Shown: positions 3,378-33,518 of the stretch, one piece after another
How the letters are laid out: every line of letters begins with the position of its first letter
Position numbering within the stretch: the first letter of the stretch is position 1
From: an uncultured Brachyspira sp.
Lineage (GTDB): Bacteria; Spirochaetota; Brachyspiria; Brachyspirales; Brachyspiraceae
DNA: 34,815 bases
Direction: 5' to 3'
Assembly: GCA_949287565.1 (NCBI GenBank)
Contig: CASEHG010000322.1
Location: forward strand, 1 to 34,815
Notes under the pieces: generated by a model
Told to the model about the DNA's origin: nothing
Database searches by the model: none
The model's input: the letters and a program-made list of their open reading frames with translations, nothing else
Program-made: the position numbers and the translations under genes

Positions 3378-4931
3378 TTAGAATAAACCTACTCTTGCCC
3401 TTTTAATCTCTGTTCTGTATCTTTTTATTTCCCATTCAGTTCTGCTTTTATCCCATTTAAGTATATTAGCCATTTCCTCTGCTATATGCTCTGATATTAA
3501 AGTACCGCAGTCATTCTCTGTTAATATGAATCTTAATCTTCTCATCATAATATCATCTAAATGCATAGCATGCTCTACTTCTACAAAATATTTTATGAGT
3601 CCCCTGTTGATTCTATAATCAAGCCCTACTTCTACTAAAAGAGATGAATCATTTTTGCAAAGCTCATTCAATTTTAGAATTAGATTAACAGAACCGAAAT
3701 AATCTATAAGGAATTTAACTAAATCTTCATTCAAAACTAATTCAGTATTTTTATCAAATTTATTATTAACAACCTTCTGATTACTAAACCATTTATAAGG
3801 CTTGCCGTACATTTTTACTAATGTTTTCATTGTAACAGCAGAAGAAGTTGTAAAGTTTCCGCCTTCAACTAAGAATAGTCTGTATTGAGGATGAGAATGT
3901 ATTTTAACCTGTGAAGGATTAAGAGGCATCATTCCAGATTGTGTAGTTATTATATGGTTTTTATTAACAATAGAACTGAAATAAGTATTATATATATCAA
4001 GCAAATATTCAGCTTCGTCGCTTGTAGTATATATACAATCTAAATCATGAGTATTTTTTTTGATTGTAGGACCTATAATGGTATTGTTCTTCCAACGCAT
4101 CAAAAATACATTAGGTCTTGATTTTATCTTAGGAAGAATAACTGATTTATTTATATGAATCAAATCGCTGTCTATAATTAAATGACTGCCCTTAACGTAA
4201 ACCAGCTTATCTTCAAAATTTCCATTAGGAAGAAGCGAACTTATATTATGTCCCCAAGCTCCTGCAGCTATTAATATAGTTTTAGCACTTGCTGTATGTA
4301 CTCTTCCAGTGATATGATCCGTAAAAACTACATTTTCTATTTCTTTCTGATTATATTCAAAAGCCTTAACTTCACAGTAGTTTAATATATCAGCTCCGAA
4401 CTCTTCAGCCTTCAAAAGAAGCTCTATAACATATCTTGAATCATCTAATAAGCCTTCATAATATTCTACAGATGCTATAACATCATTATTTATCAAATCA
4501 GGCAAAGCATCTAATGTTTCATTTCTGCTATGTGATTTATGTCTTTTAGTTTTTCCAAAGAGAGAAAACATATCATATAACATCATTTTTATTTCTTCTC
4601 TTAAAAGCCCTGTACTGCTATGCTCATATATAGGATTGATAATGCCAAAATGTTCAGATGAAGCCTTATACATAAGGTTATTTCTTTCTCTTACCCTATG
4701 AATTGTATACATTAAATTTTTACTATTCATATCATTAAATCCGCCTGAAAGCATTTTTGAAGTTCTGGAAGAAGAACCGAAAGCAAAATCATGCTTATCA
4801 AGCAAAAGTACGGAAAGTCCTACTCTAGAAGCCTTTAATGCTATAGTAGCACCTATAACTCCGCCGCCTATAATAATAATATCATATTTTTTATTACTAT
4901 TTTGGAGTATCTCAGCTCTTGTTTTTGGCAT
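3378..4931 (-). CDS. glpD: FAD-dependent glycerol-3-phosphate dehydrogenase (GlpD/GlpA type)
   Basis: This flavoenzyme oxidises sn-glycerol 3-phosphate to dihydroxyacetone phosphate and passes electrons to a membrane or protein acceptor. The N-terminus has the Rossmann dinucleotide motif GGGVIGATIA (about residues 22-31), followed by the family motif FAFGSSSRTSKMLSGGF (about 49-65). The C-terminal all-helical domain is recognisable (EVEHAMHLDDIMMRRLRF). At 517 residues it is near the usual size for GlpD. A strong ribosome binding site, AGGAG, lies about 8 nt before the ATG. Upstream, between this gene and the NuoG-like gene on the same strand, are two 77-bp repeats that would be transcribed as its leader. 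Which acceptor it uses is not shown; the neighbouring Fe-S proteins are candidates by position only. Confidence 0.9.
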   Translation of the reverse strand: MPKTRAEILQNSNKKYDIIIIGGGVIGATIALKASRVGLSVLLLDKHDFAFGSSSRTSKMLSGGFNDMNSKNLMYTIHRVRERNNLMYKASSEHFGIINPIYEHSSTGLLREEIKMMLYDMFSLFGKTKRHKSHSRNETLDALPDLINNDVIASVEYYEGLLDDSRYVIELLLKAEEFGADILNYCEVKAFEYNQKEIENVVFTDHITGRVHTASAKTILIAAGAWGHNISSLLPNGNFEDKLVYVKGSHLIIDSDLIHINKSVILPKIKSRPNVFLMRWKNNTIIGPTIKKNTHDLDCIYTTSDEAEYLLDIYNTYFSSIVNKNHIITTQSGMMPLNPSQVKIHSHPQYRLFLVEGGNFTTSSAVTMKTLVKMYGKPYKWFSNQKVVNNKFDKNTELVLNEDLVKFLIDYFGSVNLILKLNELCKNDSSLLVEVGLDYRINRGLIKYFVEVEHAMHLDDIMMRRLRFILTENDCGTLISEHIAEEMANILKWDKSRTEWEIKRYRTEIKRARVGLF

Positions 4932-4943
4932 AAATAACTCTCC

Positions 4944-5020
4944 TTTATTGTTTATAAATAAACTCGCTATACATTAGCTGACAACTTCCTTCGTCAGTTA
5001 TCAGCTGCTCGTTTATCGTT
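4944..5020 (-). repeat. 77-bp tandem hairpin repeat, copy 1 (glpD-proximal)
   Basis: This is the first of two adjacent 77-bp direct repeats that differ at four positions. On the plus strand, AGCTGACAACT (4977-4987) can pair with AGTTATCAGCT (4996-5006) with one mismatch and an 8-nt loop. An outer imperfect arm is formed by ATAAACTCGC and CGTTTAT. Read on the minus strand, the repeat ends just before the glpD ribosome binding site, so it would lie in that mRNA's leader. Confidence 0.85.
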
Positions 5021-5021
5021 T

Positions 5022-5098
5022 TTTATTGTTTATAAATAAACTCGCTATATATTAGCTGACAATTTCCTTCGTAAGTTATCAGCTGCCCGTTTATCGTT
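5022..5098 (-). repeat. 77-bp tandem hairpin repeat, copy 2
   Basis: Second copy, separated from copy 1 by one base. Three differences are C/T changes and one is C/A. The central hairpin is kept, one pair becoming a G-T wobble, which suggests that the structure rather than the sequence is retained. No reading frame crosses it convincingly. Confidence 0.85.
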
Positions 5099-5099
5099 G

Positions 5100-5185: not shown

Positions 5186-6583
5186 TTATAAATACAAATA
5201 TATTAACAATTCTCTTAAACTCATACGATTTTTACTACTTTTTAAAAAAGTCTGCATCTCTTTAACTTTACCATGATTATCTATATAATGTCCCTCAAAC
5301 TCACCAAGATATGATATAGGAAAACTTAAATAAGCATTATAAGCCAAAACAGAAAAATTCGGACTAAATACTATATAATTACCCTTATTTTTCTTGGCAA
5401 AATCAATCATATTATCATTATCATCTAATGAGTCGCCTACTATGATAAATTTTTTAAATTTTTCATTATATATATAATTATCGTCAGATATAGAATGCTT
5501 TATATCCCTCTTTAAATCTCTCATAGAAAAATCATTAATATTTGTATAATTATCTCTGATATTTTTTGAATTAGTGGCCATTCTATTTTTTTTGAATATT
5601 AAATTTTCTATTCCCAAAGAATCAATAAATTCATTGAAAGCCTTAATATCTTCAATAGGATACATACTAGAGTTTAATGCCAAAGTAGATTCTGCCTCAA
5701 TATCATTAATAAATTTATGATACAATTCTTTAGCCTCATCAAATTCATACTGCATACCACTATAAAAAGGCTTTTCTAATGTATTGTTTGAATAATAATC
5801 TAGTTTTCTTCCATAATCACATATTCCGTATTTCTTGCCCTTTGGAGATGATATATCTTTTATACTATAATCGATATAACTGTATTTAGCATCGCATAAA
5901 TGATTGCATCCTATACAAAAACTTTCTATAGTTTTTACATCACTTATATCATCATTGATTTTATTATCTATATCCCTTTGAACTTCAAATACATGGGTAG
6001 GACATAAATCTGTTATCATCGAATTATATCCGTCTATCACTTTATAATCTTCGCATATACCGCAATTAACGCATCTTTCAAAATTTGCTTTTATAAAGTT
6101 AGGAAGATTCATTTTTTCCACTATATTTTTTAATTCTATCAAGTTAATATCATTTTCATTGAAAGCATTAGGAGATGCCTCTATAGAAATATTATAAATA
6201 TCCAAATACTTTTTTAATCTGCATATATAATCAGCTTTACAGCTTTCGCATATAGGTTCATGCATATAAAGCATAGCCTTTAATAAAGAAGTTCTATATT
6301 TTATAATATCATCATCATGCTCATTTAAAACACTCATTCCATTTTCTACTATTTCATTGCAGGCATATTTATAAGAATAATCATTTTCATTTTTTTTCTT
6401 TACTTTAACCAAGCATAATTTGCATCTTAGAATATTATTTTTCTCTTCAAAAGTATTTGTACTATTTATTTTATATGAGCATAAATGAGGTATATCTATA
6501 TTGATGTAGGACAGTGCTTGAAGTATAGTATATCCTTTCTGAGATGATACCGTCTTTCCATCAACATTAAATTTTACTATCAT
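5186..6583 (-). CDS. NuoG-like iron-sulfur protein lacking the large molybdopterin domain
   Basis: A protein with the Fe-S part of complex I subunit NuoG or a related hydrogenase subunit. In order: a [2Fe-2S] ferredoxin domain (Cys35, Cys54, Cys57, Cys75), the His-Cys3 site in canonical spacing (His108, Cys112, Cys115, Cys121), one four-Cys 4Fe-4S set (Cys171, Cys174, Cys177, Cys194), and an N7-like set (Cys223, Cys226, Cys230, Cys255, ending ICDYGR). About 200 further residues show no clear molybdopterin-binding motifs, and the total of 465 is well short of normal NuoG. It follows the NuoF-like gene by 30 nt. Likely role: electron relay in the cytoplasm; donor and acceptor unknown. Confidence 0.8.
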   Translation of the reverse strand: MIVKFNVDGKTVSSQKGYTILQALSYINIDIPHLCSYKINSTNTFEEKNNILRCKLCLVKVKKKNENDYSYKYACNEIVENGMSVLNEHDDDIIKYRTSLLKAMLYMHEPICESCKADYICRLKKYLDIYNISIEASPNAFNENDINLIELKNIVEKMNLPNFIKANFERCVNCGICEDYKVIDGYNSMITDLCPTHVFEVQRDIDNKINDDISDVKTIESFCIGCNHLCDAKYSYIDYSIKDISSPKGKKYGICDYGRKLDYYSNNTLEKPFYSGMQYEFDEAKELYHKFINDIEAESTLALNSSMYPIEDIKAFNEFIDSLGIENLIFKKNRMATNSKNIRDNYTNINDFSMRDLKRDIKHSISDDNYIYNEKFKKFIIVGDSLDDNDNMIDFAKKNKGNYIVFSPNFSVLAYNAYLSFPISYLGEFEGHYIDNHGKVKEMQTFLKSSKNRMSLRELLIYLYL

Positions 6584-6613
6584 TAAATAAAACCTCTAAT
6601 ATAAAAAAGATTT

Positions 6614-7777
6614 TTAACTTTTTACAAAACTATATAATGTTATCTTATTCTCTATCAAATACACAAACTCATCTCTAAACATTTCCATAGCAGATAATAT
6701 ACAGTTAGCAAGACTTCTTATATATAAACATGAAGCCCCTATTTTAATCATTTCAACAGCTTCTTTCAAATTAGAATAATCATCAAAATTTGAATTTCCT
6801 AAAAGCATTCTATTAATATAATATTCGCATAAATCAAATCCATAATGACAAGGAGAACATTTTCCGCATGATATGCTTTTAGCAAACTGAATTATTTTTA
6901 CTACAACCCTTATTATACATCTATCCTCTTGTATAAAACATATTCCCCCATTTCCCATCTTCATATTAAGACTATCAAAACATTCATAATCTAAAGTCAT
7001 TTTCTGAAAAGTTTCAAAATCTATAGGAGGATTCAAAAAACCATTAGTAAATACGCATTTTATAGTATATTCTTTCACTGTCCCGCCGGCAGCTTTAACA
7101 ATATTTCTTAATGGAGTATACATTTCAAATTCATATAGATTAGGACTAATGATATCCCCCGTAACAGAAAGTATATTACTTCCTTTATACTCTCCATTTC
7201 CATAATCTTTAAAAGTAAATCCTCCAATATGAGCCAAATATGCAATTTGTGATATAGTTTCCAAATCAAATACATATTTTTTATTTTCTAAAAAAGAAGG
7301 TGTGATTCTGATATTATATTTATTATAGTAGGCATATTCATCATATATATTTATTTCTATATCACCTACAAAATTAGCATCTTCCGCTTCAACTATAGCT
7401 TTTAGTATAGTATCTCTTTCTTCTAAATAATAATCTTTTAATATTATATCTATTTTTTTAATATTTAAAATTTTGGCTATAAATACAGCTCCATCTAATA
7501 TGAGATGCGGATTATTTTTTAATAGAAATTTATCTTTGAAAACCAAATAATCAAATGAAGCGGCATTGACTAGAATATAATCTTCTTTAATATTTCCGTC
7601 AGTTAATAATTGATATATAGAAGTTTGAGTAATATCTCTTTTAAATAAAGGATATTCTTTTAAATCTTCAAAAAAAGAATTACCTATTTTTTGAACTGCT
7701 AAATATTCCCCGAAATGATCTTTATATAATTGAATATTTTCTATATTATTTTCACTATGCAGTACAAATTTCTTCAT
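6614..7777 (-). CDS. NuoF-like protein with degenerate FMN/NADH site
   Basis: Homologous in outline to NuoF, the NADH- and FMN-binding subunit of complex I and NAD-linked hydrogenases. The C-terminal 4Fe-4S site is intact (Cys304, Cys307, Cys310 in SCGKCSPC, and Cys350), as is the FRDEF helix. The segment FKDKFLLKNNPHLILDG (about 80-96) matches the family's FKDR...PHxLxEG stretch. By eye the glycine-rich loop (GRGGAGFPTG in the family) is replaced at about residues 45-58 by KRDITQTSIYQLL, and the acidic NADE(G/S)EPGT loop by NAASFDYLVF (71-80). NADH oxidation is therefore doubtful. The start overlaps the stop of the NuoE-like gene by 4 nt (ATGA), indicating coupled translation. Confidence 0.82.
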   Translation of the reverse strand: MKKFVLHSENNIENIQLYKDHFGEYLAVQKIGNSFFEDLKEYPLFKRDITQTSIYQLLTDGNIKEDYILVNAASFDYLVFKDKFLLKNNPHLILDGAVFIAKILNIKKIDIILKDYYLEERDTILKAIVEAEDANFVGDIEINIYDEYAYYNKYNIRITPSFLENKKYVFDLETISQIAYLAHIGGFTFKDYGNGEYKGSNILSVTGDIISPNLYEFEMYTPLRNIVKAAGGTVKEYTIKCVFTNGFLNPPIDFETFQKMTLDYECFDSLNMKMGNGGICFIQEDRCIIRVVVKIIQFAKSISCGKCSPCHYGFDLCEYYINRMLLGNSNFDDYSNLKEAVEMIKIGASCLYIRSLANCILSAMEMFRDEFVYLIENKITLYSFVKS

Positions 7778-8043
7778 CTTTTTCTTACATGTATAGCTTC
7801 TATATACTTAATAATACTTTTAAAAGACGATTTTGTACATTCCATACCATTAATAAGGATAGGTACGGCATTATGGCAATCATGCATACACTCCATCTCT
7901 TTAAGGAGCATACCATCAGATGACGGCACTCCTATTTCTAAATCATAATGAGAACGAATAGCTTCTAAAAGAGCATAAGCCCCTTTCATAGAGCAATGAA
8001 GTCCTACGCATACTTCTATGACAGTTTTTACATTGCTTGCCAT
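7774..8043 (-). CDS. NuoE-like thioredoxin-fold [2Fe-2S] protein, short form
   Basis: A thioredoxin-like [2Fe-2S] ferredoxin of the NuoE/HydA-gamma type. The four ligands keep the family spacing: Cys12-x4-Cys17 and Cys52-x3-Cys56, followed by a hydrophobic VPILING strand. With 89 residues it contains only the ferredoxin fold; the N-terminal helical domain found in most NuoE proteins (about 160 residues in all) is missing. It is the first of three genes (NuoE-, NuoF-, NuoG-like) on the minus strand and overlaps the next by 4 nt. The 29-codon ribosomal-type gene lies 70 nt upstream on the same strand and may share its transcript. Expected to pass single electrons within the complex. Confidence 0.85.
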   Translation of the reverse strand: MASNVKTVIEVCVGLHCSMKGAYALLEAIRSHYDLEIGVPSSDGMLLKEMECMHDCHNAVPILINGMECTKSSFKSIIKYIEAIHVRKR

Positions 8044-8113: not shown

Positions 8114-8203
8114 TTACTTTTTCTTATGCCTATTTTTGCGTAAACGTTTTTTACGTTTATGCGTAGCCATCTTTTGACGAAGTCTTTTTCTTCCTGAAGG
8201 CAT
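8114..8203 (-). CDS. Small basic ribosomal-type protein, AURKAIP1/COX24 (mS38/bS22-like) family
   Basis: A 29-codon gene starting MPSGRKRLRQKMATHKRKKR and continuing LRKNRHKKK before TAA. More than half of its residues are Lys, Arg or His. It closely resembles the tiny AURKAIP1/COX24-domain proteins of bacteria, whose relatives mS38 (mitochondria) and bS22 (mycobacteria) sit on the small ribosomal subunit near the decoding site. A ribosome binding site (GGGAG) lies 6 nt before the ATG. The gene stands 70 nt upstream of the NuoE-like gene on the same strand. Family recognition is from memory of the sequence pattern; ribosomal location is inferred from homologues. Confidence 0.8.
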   Translation of the reverse strand: MPSGRKRLRQKMATHKRKKRLRKNRHKKK

Positions 8204-8347
8204 ATACACTCCCATTTTTATCTAATTTGAAAATTCATTATAACATTTTACATAAATAATTTCAAGTTTAAACTAAAAAACTAATTTCATTTTTTTACAT
8301 TTATCATATAATTATCATCATAATTTAATTGCAAAGGAAGTTATTAA

Positions 8348-10696: not shown

Positions 10697-11194
10697 ATGA
10701 TAAGAAAAATATTTAATGTAGTAATTTCTATTTCTCTACTATTATTTGTAGTATCATGCGGAACTGGTGTGAGCAGGAGCCAACCAGAAGGCTGGATTAA
10801 TGATGACACATTCAGAGTAATGGGAATGGGTTCTCCATCAGACGATATAGACGATAAATTCAGAAGAGAAGTAGCGGCAAAACAAGCAGCTGAATTAGAT
10901 GCCAAAAATAAAATTGCTGCTAAAATTGTAGGTTCATATATAGAATCTCTAAGTTCTACTGAAAAAGGCATGATAGATGAATATGTTATTCAGGAAAGAG
11001 TTGCTGGAAGAATAAGAGGTACTTCTGTTGTAGAAAGCAAATGGGACTCTAAACAAAATTGTACTGTAGTAATGGAACTATATTCAAAAAACCTTAGAAA
11101 ACAGATGGATAATTTGGTAACTCAATATCTTAATGAAGTTGGTATGCAATATACTGCTCAGGATGTTGCTGGAATGGTAAGAACTTATAAATAA
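10697..11194 (+). CDS. LPP20-like lipoprotein, copy 1
   Basis: A predicted exported lipoprotein of 165 residues. The N-terminus (MIRKIF, then a hydrophobic stretch ending FVVSC) is a type II signal peptide with lipidated Cys at about residue 20. The mature part has a Trp-Ile motif (PEGWINDDTFRVMGMG) and an Ala-rich charged helix (AAKQAAELDAKNKIAAKI), as in LPP20-family lipoproteins; the function of these is not known. A perfect AGGAGG lies 10 nt upstream of the ATG, implying strong translation. It is followed by a good terminator and then by a close paralogue, the mature regions differing at only about 20 of 145 positions. Confidence 0.8.
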   Translation: MIRKIFNVVISISLLLFVVSCGTGVSRSQPEGWINDDTFRVMGMGSPSDDIDDKFRREVAAKQAAELDAKNKIAAKIVGSYIESLSSTEKGMIDEYVIQERVAGRIRGTSVVESKWDSKQNCTVVMELYSKNLRKQMDNLVTQYLNEVGMQYTAQDVAGMVRTYK

Positions 11195-11404: not shown

Positions 11405-11905
11405 ATGAATAAATTTATAAAATTATTTATTATGACATCAATGCTTTCACTATTCATTATTTCATGCGGAAGCGGAGTAAGCAGAGAAAGACCGGAAGGC
11501 TGGATTAATGATGACACATTCAGAGTAATGGGAATGGGTTCTCCAGCAGAAGATATAGATATAGATGATAAATTCAGAAGAGAATTAACATCAAAACAAG
11601 CAGCAGAATTGGATGCTAAAAATAAAATTGTAGCAAGAATTGTAGGTTCATATATAGAATCTTTAAGCTCTACTGAAAAAGGCATGATAGATGAATATGT
11701 TATACAGGAAAGAGTGGCAGGAAGAATAAGAGGAGCTTCTGTTGTAGAAACTAAATGGGACTCTAAGCAGAATTGTACTGTGGTGATGGAACTTTATTCT
11801 AAAGGATTAAAAAAACAGGTAGATACATTAATCACAAAATATCTTAATGAAGTTGGTATGCAATACACTGCTCAAGATGTTGCAGGTATGGTAGAAACTT
11901 ATTGA
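11405..11905 (+). CDS. LPP20-like lipoprotein, copy 2
   Basis: Paralogue of the preceding gene: 166 residues, signal peptide ending LFIISC, then nearly the same mature protein. It shares PEGWINDDTFRVMGMG, the segment GSYIESLSSTEKGMIDEYV and the end QYTAQDVAGM. It carries a two-residue insertion in the aspartate-rich stretch (DIDIDD for DIDD), probably from a repeated GATATA. The signal peptides have diverged far more than the mature parts, which suggests selection on the mature protein. AGGAAGGA just before the ATG is the ribosome binding site. Likely located on a membrane facing the periplasm or surface; role unknown. Confidence 0.8.
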   Translation: MNKFIKLFIMTSMLSLFIISCGSGVSRERPEGWINDDTFRVMGMGSPAEDIDIDDKFRRELTSKQAAELDAKNKIVARIVGSYIESLSSTEKGMIDEYVIQERVAGRIRGASVVETKWDSKQNCTVVMELYSKGLKKQVDTLITKYLNEVGMQYTAQDVAGMVETY

Positions 11906-31137: not shown

Positions 31138-33456
31138 TTAATCTTTATACCAAGAAGGCGTATTATTTTCCATTGCTGAGTTATTAAACATATCTCTCAT
31201 ACGATTAGGCTCTACTTTGGATACATTCCAAGATTCTAAATTCTGATTAAAACTTTCAGCTTCATAAAATACAGAATTCATATATTCCACATTATAAACG
31301 TCCCAATTATCCAAAGGCTGATTAAATGATGAAGCATAACGAAACATTGTACTAATACTTGTAACATTAGAAACATTCCAATTATTAAGAGGCTGATTAA
31401 AACTTTTAGCATTATCAAACATCATTGACATATCTTTTACATTACTTACATTCCATTTGTCTAAAGGCTGATTGAAACTAGAAAATTTAAACATACCTTC
31501 CATATCAACAACATTAGATACATTCCAACTATTTAAAGGCTGATTAAAACTTTTAGTAAAACAAAACATTGATGACATATCTTTTACGTTAGATACATTC
31601 CACTTGTCTAAAGCACTATTAAAAAGCTTAGCACCTTCAAACATACTAGACATATTTTCAACATTAGATACATCCCAGTCATTAATATTTTGATTAAAAC
31701 TTTCAGCATAATAAAACATTGATGACATATCCTTTACATTACTTACATTCCACTTGTCTAAAGGCTGATTAAAACTCTCACAATTAGCAAACATATTTTT
31801 CATATTAACAACTTTAGATACATTCCAATCATTAAGAGGAGAATTAAACTTTTTACATTTTTTAAACATAGAACTCATATTCTCAACTTTTGAAACGTCC
31901 CAACTGTTTATATTATGATCAAAACCTAATGCTTCCTCAAACATACTTTCCATATTTACTACATTAGATACGTTCCAAGTTTCTATACCATCAAATTTTT
32001 TTAATTTAGAACCTTTAAAAAGATTACTCATATCTGTTATTAAAGAAGTATCTATTTTATCAAATTTTGTTTTCTCTGCTATTAGTTTAATTAATTCATT
32101 TTTGTTTTTTGGCTGATGCATTTGTATCTGTTTACTTTCTTTAGTATCTTTTTTCTCTTTTTTAGGTGACGATTTCTTTTCTTCTTTTTCTAATTCTTTA
32201 TACTCTTTTATAATATCTTCTTTACCATCGATAAGCTCTTTTAATTCATCATAACAAGTATTTTCAAGCTTTTTGAGAACTTCAGCTACTGCCTTTTTAT
32301 TATATTTTAAGCCAAGTTTATAAACTTCTTTTATATCAAATTTATTTATAATTTCTTCAAAGTTTTTTATAGCCGATTTTGAGCTTTGAAAAGAATATAT
32401 TTTTATTATTAACTCTAATGACACATTATTAAAAATATTATCAAATTCTTTAACTTTCTTGAAACTCCAATTTTTTATATTATCAGGATTAAAAGATGAA
32501 GCATTAAAAAAAGCATTATTCATATATTCTACTTTCTCTGTTTTCCAGCTGTTTAAATCCTGATTAAATGAAGAAGCATCACAAAATATATCTGCAAGCC
32601 CTGTTAGATTAGAAGTGTCCCATTTATCTAAAGGCTGATTAAAATTTGTAGCTCCTTTAAACATAGCATACATACTAGCAACATTAAATACGTCCCAACT
32701 ATTTAAAGACTGATTAAAATTCTCACAACCTGCAAACATAAAACCCATACCATCAACATTGGAAGTATTCCACTTATCTAAAGGCTGATTGAAATTCTTA
32801 GCTCCTTCAAACATAGAAATCATACAGGCAACGTTTGATACATCCCAGTTATTTATATTTTGATTAAAACTTTTAGCATCGTTAAACATCTCCATAATAT
32901 GTTTTAAATTAGAAGTATTCCATTTGTCTAATGGCTGATTAAAGCTCTCAGCATTTTTAAACATACCAGCCATATTCTCAACATTAGATACATTCCAACT
33001 ATTTAAAGGCTGATTAAAATTCTCACAACCCAAAAACATCTCATTCATATATTCAACATTAGATACATTCCAATTATTTATATCCTGATTAAAACTCTTG
33101 GCATTCATAAACATCTCACCCATACTCGTAACTTTAGAAATATTCCATTTGTCTAAAGGCTGATTAAAAGTTTTTGCACCATAAAACATAGCATACATAT
33201 TTGTAACATTAGATACGTCCCAACTATTTAAAGGCTGATTAAAAGTTTCACACTCTTTAAACATTGCTGCCATATCTGTAACATTAGATACGTCCCAGGT
33301 TTCTATACCTGAAAAATCTTCTCTTTTACTCATTAGAAATAAATATCTCATATCTGTTATTAAACTTGTATCAATACTTCCAAGATTAATTTTTTCATCT
33401 TCTACTAATTTTTGTAATTCTTCTTTACTTTTTGGTTTAAATTGTTTTTCTGACAT
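31138..33456 (-). CDS. BspA-like (DUF285) repeat protein without signal peptide
   Basis: 772 residues, built of two blocks of 25-residue repeats of the BspA/DUF285 type, typical unit FNQPLDKWNVSNVKDMSSMF. Block 1 (about 40-335) has about 12 units; block 2 (about 480-765) has about 11. Each block is preceded by a matching lead-in (KPKSKEELQKLV... and QPKNKNELIKLI..., each running to DTSLITDM). A Lys/Glu-rich linker (about 335-450) joins them, so the protein arose by duplication. Units alternate ...NSW, DKW, NNW in triplets. The frame opens further to a TTG at 33480, but GGAGAG lies about 9 nt before the ATG at 33456 (MSEKQFKPK). With this start there is no signal peptide or anchor, unlike surface BspA proteins. 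Confidence 0.88.
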   Translation of the reverse strand: MSEKQFKPKSKEELQKLVEDEKINLGSIDTSLITDMRYLFLMSKREDFSGIETWDVSNVTDMAAMFKECETFNQPLNSWDVSNVTNMYAMFYGAKTFNQPLDKWNISKVTSMGEMFMNAKSFNQDINNWNVSNVEYMNEMFLGCENFNQPLNSWNVSNVENMAGMFKNAESFNQPLDKWNTSNLKHIMEMFNDAKSFNQNINNWDVSNVACMISMFEGAKNFNQPLDKWNTSNVDGMGFMFAGCENFNQSLNSWDVFNVASMYAMFKGATNFNQPLDKWDTSNLTGLADIFCDASSFNQDLNSWKTEKVEYMNNAFFNASSFNPDNIKNWSFKKVKEFDNIFNNVSLELIIKIYSFQSSKSAIKNFEEIINKFDIKEVYKLGLKYNKKAVAEVLKKLENTCYDELKELIDGKEDIIKEYKELEKEEKKSSPKKEKKDTKESKQIQMHQPKNKNELIKLIAEKTKFDKIDTSLITDMSNLFKGSKLKKFDGIETWNVSNVVNMESMFEEALGFDHNINSWDVSKVENMSSMFKKCKKFNSPLNDWNVSKVVNMKNMFANCESFNQPLDKWNVSNVKDMSSMFYYAESFNQNINDWDVSNVENMSSMFEGAKLFNSALDKWNVSNVKDMSSMFCFTKSFNQPLNSWNVSNVVDMEGMFKFSSFNQPLDKWNVSNVKDMSMMFDNAKSFNQPLNNWNVSNVTSISTMFRYASSFNQPLDNWDVYNVEYMNSVFYEAESFNQNLESWNVSKVEPNRMRDMFNNSAMENNTPSWYKD

Positions 33457-33518
33457 AATAATCTCTCCGCTTACAATCAATTCAAATTAAATATTTGTTA
33501 ATGTGAAAAATCAGTAAA

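Follow-up and report, generated by a model that had tools for sequence, protein, structure and literature searches.

A conserved Brachyspira gene cassette combining a NuoEFG-like iron-sulfur module, apparently without the standard NADH/FMN site, with an altered GlpD-family FAD protein

A four-gene cassette in Brachyspira

Analysis of a 34,815-nt stretch of DNA from an uncultured Brachyspira sp. (contig CASEHG010000322.1, assembly GCA_949287565.1; hereafter, the window) points to a cassette of four genes that, with a probability of roughly 0.5, codes for an Fe-S flavoprotein of four subunits whose NuoE-, NuoF- and NuoG-like wire trades electrons with an FAD protein in place of NADH/FMN (Table 1). 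Somewhat more tentatively, the cassette may specify an undescribed oxidoreductase in which a complex I-derived module devoid of its NADH/FMN site acts as the conduit of a repurposed GlpD-type flavoprotein, with a new substrate and a place in Brachyspira core metabolism.

The original prediction described the NuoE-, NuoF- and NuoG-like genes as an electron relay that no longer takes electrons from NADH in the standard way and has a different donor. It overlooked the FAD protein gene, which follows NuoG in the sister genus (g2) and in every Brachyspira locus with a long enough contig, making its product a likely partner of NuoEFG. This gene stays with NuoEFG even at loci where the outer neighbors differ completely (L051-L057 in Brachyspira; L093 and L094 in the sister genus). 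The four-gene unit, together with an upstream bS22 gene, is the sole constant where outer synteny is lost, which counts in favor of a four-subunit complex.

Table 1. Features of the cassette and of other parts of the window discussed in the text.
Feature	Position	Strand	Length	Description
NuoE-like protein	7774..8043	-	89 aa	Thioredoxin-like [2Fe-2S] domain only
NuoF-like protein	6614..7777	-	387 aa	Retains N3-type 4Fe-4S ligands; lacks the standard NADH/FMN loops (by alignment)
NuoG-like protein	5186..6583	-	465 aa	One 2Fe-2S and three 4Fe-4S ligand sets
FAD-dependent oxidoreductase (fourth cassette gene)	3378..4931	-	517 aa	GlpD/GlpO/GlpA family; DAO_C domain
Ribosomal protein bS22 (AURKAIP1/COX24 type)	8114..8215	-	29-33 aa	Directly upstream of NuoE
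Two tandem repeats	4944..5099	.	78 nt each	94% alike; gap between NuoG-like and FAD genes
Similar adjacent genes, first	10697..11194		165 aa	No Pfam match
Similar adjacent genes, second	11405..11905		166 aa	No Pfam match
Repeat protein	31138..33480	-	780 aa	25-residue (75-nt) repeats; seven DUF285 matches

Domain composition and iron-sulfur ligands

Pfam and NCBIfam relate the first three proteins to NuoE, NuoF and NuoG, with scores far under the NCBIfam cut-offs for genuine Nuo subunits. The NuoE-like protein matches 2Fe-2S_thioredx (PF01257) only from profile position 65 of 145, in agreement with the proposed lack of the N-terminal helical domain, and its cluster ligands (C12, C17, C52, C56) are invariant in 26 of 26 genus copies. 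The residue between the last two ligands is His in all 26, Arg in the sister genus and Gly in HydC; this His/Arg is a putative cluster ligand or proton carrier.

The NuoG-like protein, recognised as Fer2_4/NuoG, carries the four ligand sets originally assigned to it (C35/C54/C57/C75; H108/C112/C115/C121; C171/C174/C177/C194; C223/C226/C230/C255), which correspond to N1b-, N5-, N4- and N7-type clusters and whose 16 residues are invariant in 24 of 24 genus copies. The suggested lack of the large molybdopterin domain was borne out as a shortening and not as a complete absence: about 205 residues remain in the C-terminal domain, with weak similarity to NuoG/NfnA-type domains.

The NuoF-like protein, 96-98% identical in the window to copies in several Brachyspira records, matches SLBB, NADH_4Fe-4S and Complex1_51K (the latter at profile positions 26-104 of 150 only). 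Its ligands C304, C307, C310 and C350 are kept in 23 of 24 genus copies. The exception is the G020 copy, in which C307 alone is left of the four N3 ligands. Compared with complex I, the N1a, N3, N1b, N4, N5 and N7 ligand sets are thus all found, with one species lacking the N3 ligands. The G020 copy (L057 6746-7894) has an open reading frame and is the most divergent Brachyspira NuoF-like sequence; its genome is small (2.0 Mb), with no full-length HydB match and a weak Fe-hydrogenase match. Genome G024, a metagenome bin with 4% estimated contamination that may mix species, has two NuoF-like copies, 98% and 71% identical to that of the window, on two contigs (L006/L035 and L030/L058).

The NADH/FMN pocket of the NuoF-like protein

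To assess the pocket, we compared the NuoF-like proteins with nine canonical NuoF/HydB proteins from the same order. In GRGGAGF, the three glycines tested are replaced by K/T/S, D/N and I/A/V, and the D-E-(S/G) of the acidic loop by A/Y/C/F, S and F/I/L, such that NADE(G/S)EP reads NAASFDY in the window; the P-G that follows becomes Y-L. The motif NNVET reads FDLET in the window, its N-N being F/L and D across copies, and two stretches flanking the GEET motif, GAGAxVCG before it and a proline-rich stretch after it, are deleted. The NADH site of A. aeolicus NuoEF comprises E95, S96, E97, D103 and E184 (PMC6560083). At the aligned positions, E95 is Ser, S96 is Phe/Ile/Leu and D103 is kept, and the E97 position usually holds Asp, which most canonical relatives also have there. 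The predicted disappearance of the glycine-rich and acidic NADH loops is therefore seen against all nine canonical proteins and in both genera and, judged from this replacement of residues, the standard NADH/FMN site is lost from the NuoF-like protein.

Structure prediction, which had been put forward as a check, recovered the NuoF fold (pLDDT 79, TM about 0.8), the loss of the loops being read from the alignment; the best PDB matches are HydABC and related HydB/NfnB-type enzymes. Because the model keeps this fold, the protein could still hold a non-standard flavin site. A diverged NADH enzyme, whose NuoF-like subunit uses a remodeled set of pocket residues to hold FMN or another flavin along with a nicotinamide, would account for this retained fold, for the invariant NuoE cluster, which lies beside FMN in complex I, and for the pocket residues still present, namely N71, D76 (the E97 position), D82, E173 and T174, along with D146-E147, which line up with the two Glu residues of GEET in Brachyspira; the sister genus, whose alignment is uncertain here, shows no such match. 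We nonetheless regard such an enzyme as unlikely. The glycine-rich loop, acidic D-E, P-G and Asn pair are missing from both genera, and the two stretches flanking GEET are gone. Moreover, the NuoE glycine G129 of A. aeolicus (G135 in E. coli), whose change to Asp is reported to abolish the activity of E. coli complex I (PMC6560083), aligns with the invariant His of Brachyspira NuoE-like proteins.

The FAD protein and its substrate site

The FAD motifs of the fourth protein, including GxGxxG, are kept in Brachyspira, g2 and a third genus (g3), and its DAO_C domain is matched. The FAD-protein alignment shows that these same three genera no longer have the KLvHGG His with its following Arg-Tyr, the GLRPL and TTSRE arginines or the GGKLTT lysine, all of which are present in six of six canonical homologues and shared by the majority of the solved homologues in the alignment. 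We take the lost His, Arg and Lys positions to be the glycerol-3-phosphate substrate site of GlpD/GlpO. The pocket was read from the alignment, the structural model built from 15 close homologues having reached pLDDT 39.

In the FAD-protein tree, which follows taxonomy, Brachyspira, g2 and g3 group next to the versions of two order-level relatives (G152 and G162), whose FAD protein is canonical and adjoins a glycerophosphodiesterase gene. The altered protein of g3 has no NuoEFG beside it, and the NuoF matches of that genus in the order-wide search are only HydB-like; the change of the site hence predates the link with NuoEFG, or g3 has lost that link.

The fourth protein could instead be part of a glycerol-3-phosphate:acceptor oxidoreductase that works with rearranged residues and in which NuoEFG takes the place of the GlpBC outlet. 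The glycerophosphodiesterase neighbors of the canonical relatives would suit this function, and the cassette protein is the only DAO_C protein found in Brachyspira, with one match in each genome that has any. The genome paper of B. pilosicoli credits it with glycerol use, glycerol kinase and a gene, possibly that of the cassette, annotated as glycerol-3-phosphate dehydrogenase (PMC3532143). Set against this is the replacement, in all three genera, of the substrate-site His, Arg-Tyr, two further Arg and Lys that the six canonical homologues share, and we consider the glycerol-3-phosphate reading improbable, although it is, with the flavin/NADH reading, one of the two main rivals of the four-subunit model. 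Naming the cassette proteins glycerol-3-phosphate dehydrogenase or NADH dehydrogenase subunits would mislead metabolic models.

Neighboring elements

The bS22 gene, with AURKAIP1/COX24 and bS22 chains among its top PDB matches, precedes NuoE by about 30-80 nt in both Brachyspira and the sister genus, and sits at another locus in g3. It had been omitted from the ORF lists owing to its small size. We infer that it shares a transcript with NuoE, and the linkage may tie expression of the cassette to growth. No terminator-like sites were found in the cassette region, and an Rfam search of the window returned no matches.

This linkage to a ribosomal protein gene, the joint alteration of two substrate sites and the loss of N3 ligands in one lineage could also reflect a complex with a structural or regulatory role, such as a redox sensor, that does not transfer electrons steadily. 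Keeping four to six cluster ligand sets unchanged genus-wide would be costly for a scaffold, however, and Pfam scans detected no DNA- or RNA-binding domain; a role of this kind appears distinctly unlikely.

The NuoG-like and FAD genes are 30-273 nt apart across loci. In the window this gap holds the tandem repeats, which contain an internal palindrome; 26-nt cores related to them occur at only four other sites in the genome, with up to three mismatches. A leucyl aminopeptidase gene is frequently near the cassette in a variable arrangement. Further away, the two similar adjacent genes of the window have DNA repeats 83-86% alike and are conserved across Brachyspira loci, and the opposite end encodes the large DUF285 repeat protein.

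Maintenance and distribution of the cassette

The 4-nt overlap between NuoE and NuoF, from which a maintained operon had been proposed, is present in the window and in all 24 Brachyspira loci measured. NuoEFG-like frames are intact in 25 of 26 Brachyspira genomes, the contig of the remaining one (G013) stopping within NuoG. Pairwise dN/dS estimates (NG86, nine pairs, four genes) range from 0.05 to 0.29, a few very similar NuoE pairs being lower, and all four cassette genes are under purifying selection. With its ligands conserved as well, the locus is maintained, as had been claimed. The original prediction had also named, as evidence to the contrary, full-length homologues elsewhere in the genome combined with decay of this locus: the former exist, in the form of a canonical HydABC, and the locus is not decaying.

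This canonical HydABC is present, separate from the cassette, in most Brachyspira, including the window genome. Six genomes (G011, G012, G014, G017, G018 and G020) have the cassette without a full-length HydB match, indicating that the cassette is independent of HydABC, and PF02906, the HydA hydrogen-cluster domain, has no match within the cassette locus. An origin from the HydABC of the same genome was dismissed: NuoF-like proteins form a clade apart from HydB with full support and are not a recent copy of it, in a tree where long branches meet at the NuoF-like clade and its placement is approximate. None of the Brachyspiraceae searched has the complex I 49 kDa subunit, which both f2 genomes possess; its absence from the family leaves the NuoEFG module apparently without a membrane arm to serve. 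A decaying remnant of complex I or HydABC, which the missing complex I, the shortened proteins and the ligand loss in G020 might evoke, is very improbable given the open frames, dN/dS well below 1, the clade distinct from HydB and a second genus with the same architecture at 34-38% NuoF/NuoG identity.

The comparison across spirochaetes that had been suggested places the cassette in Brachyspira and this one sister genus. In about 390 Spirochaetota genomes, only Brachyspira and g2 yielded full-length NuoG-like matches, and high-scoring full-length FAD-protein matches came from Brachyspira, g2 and g3, as well as from f2 in canonical form. A contig scan with NuoF patterns returned Brachyspira only; since these patterns are too narrow even for the sister genus, the cassette may also occur outside the Spirochaetota. 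Short NuoG-like proteins of other spirochaetes were tried as cassette relatives and discarded, with no cassette in the six loci fetched; four of these adjoin a NuoE-NuoF fusion-type gene, in what by eye are formate dehydrogenase-like operons. The cassette is not described in the passages of the B. hyodysenteriae and B. pilosicoli genome papers returned by keyword search, and a literature search combining NuoF, GlpA and glycerol-3-phosphate dehydrogenase yielded no matching paper.

A proposed electron pathway

NuoEFG-type modules normally link NADH/FMN to another partner. The cassette preserves the wire and has lost the NADH end, with a second enzyme, itself changed at its substrate site, tied on. 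As both the wire set and the GlpD relative have lost their usual substrate residues, the reaction is probably an undescribed electron transfer. The original interpretation is supported in part: an Fe-S module without the standard NADH/FMN site is well supported by the lost loops and the maintained locus, and a different donor becomes plausible in the co-conserved FAD protein, a candidate donor (or acceptor) for the NuoEFG wire on the strength of gene context and residue patterns.

In the four-subunit model, the NuoE-, NuoF- and NuoG-like proteins and the FAD protein would assemble as one complex. A small substrate other than glycerol-3-phosphate would trade two electrons with the FAD of the fourth subunit, and single electrons would pass along the NuoG-like clusters, perhaps via the N7-type cluster, whose counterpart in formate dehydrogenase-type relatives adjoins the substrate site. 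Electrons might then reach NuoF at its N3-type cluster and NuoE at its [2Fe-2S] cluster, and ferredoxin, flavodoxin or another soluble carrier could dock at the vacated NADH/FMN face. Several points count against this model. Genome G020 keeps its NuoF-like gene despite the loss of three N3 ligands; G149 has the altered FAD protein without adjoining NuoEFG, so this protein can work without the wire; and, with FMN gone, the NuoE cluster may be too distant from N3 for fast transfer. If real, the cassette would be a natural case of a complex I input module rewired to another flavoprotein; it would also mark an undescribed redox step that is nearly universal in Brachyspira, a genus with intestinal pathogens of animals among its members.

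Comparison with known systems

The cassette is a lineage-restricted form of known Fe-S flavoprotein modules. It shares with complex I NuoEFG three homologous subunits and a matching Fe-S ligand pattern that includes the N7-type set, and differs from it in lacking the NADH/FMN loops, in a NuoE reduced to the [2Fe-2S] domain, in the shortened C-terminal domain of NuoG, in a genome apparently without the membrane arm and in having the FAD protein as gene neighbor. HydABC and other HydB/NfnB-type enzymes likewise contain a soluble NuoE/NuoF/NuoG-like module, but with the hydrogen cluster on HydA and, on HydB, retained FMN/NADH loops plus additional Fe-S domains. With bacterial GlpABC and GlpD/GlpO, the fourth protein has in common its family, FAD motifs and DAO_C domain, whereas it has lost the substrate-site residues and GlpB/GlpC are not beside it.

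In archaea, glycerol-3-phosphate dehydrogenases that have Fe-S and NADH-oxidase subunits as partners set a precedent for the arrangement (PMC11962113). In the Thermococcus-type GlpTk complex, a GlpA/GlpD-family flavoprotein is encoded with electron-transfer subunits, as in the cassette; its dehydrogenase acts on glycerol-3-phosphate and its partners are annotated as NADH oxidase and molybdopterin oxidoreductase subunits (PMC11962113), whereas the cassette partners are homologues of NuoE, NuoF and NuoG. Complex I variants without the NADH module or with flavodoxin, including an 11-subunit complex and that of Campylobacter jejuni, are cited in PMC11238625 and resemble the cassette in being complex I-related with no direct use of NADH. 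These variants keep the membrane part, with the NADH module lost or replaced, while the cassette keeps only the NADH module, with the NADH site lost.
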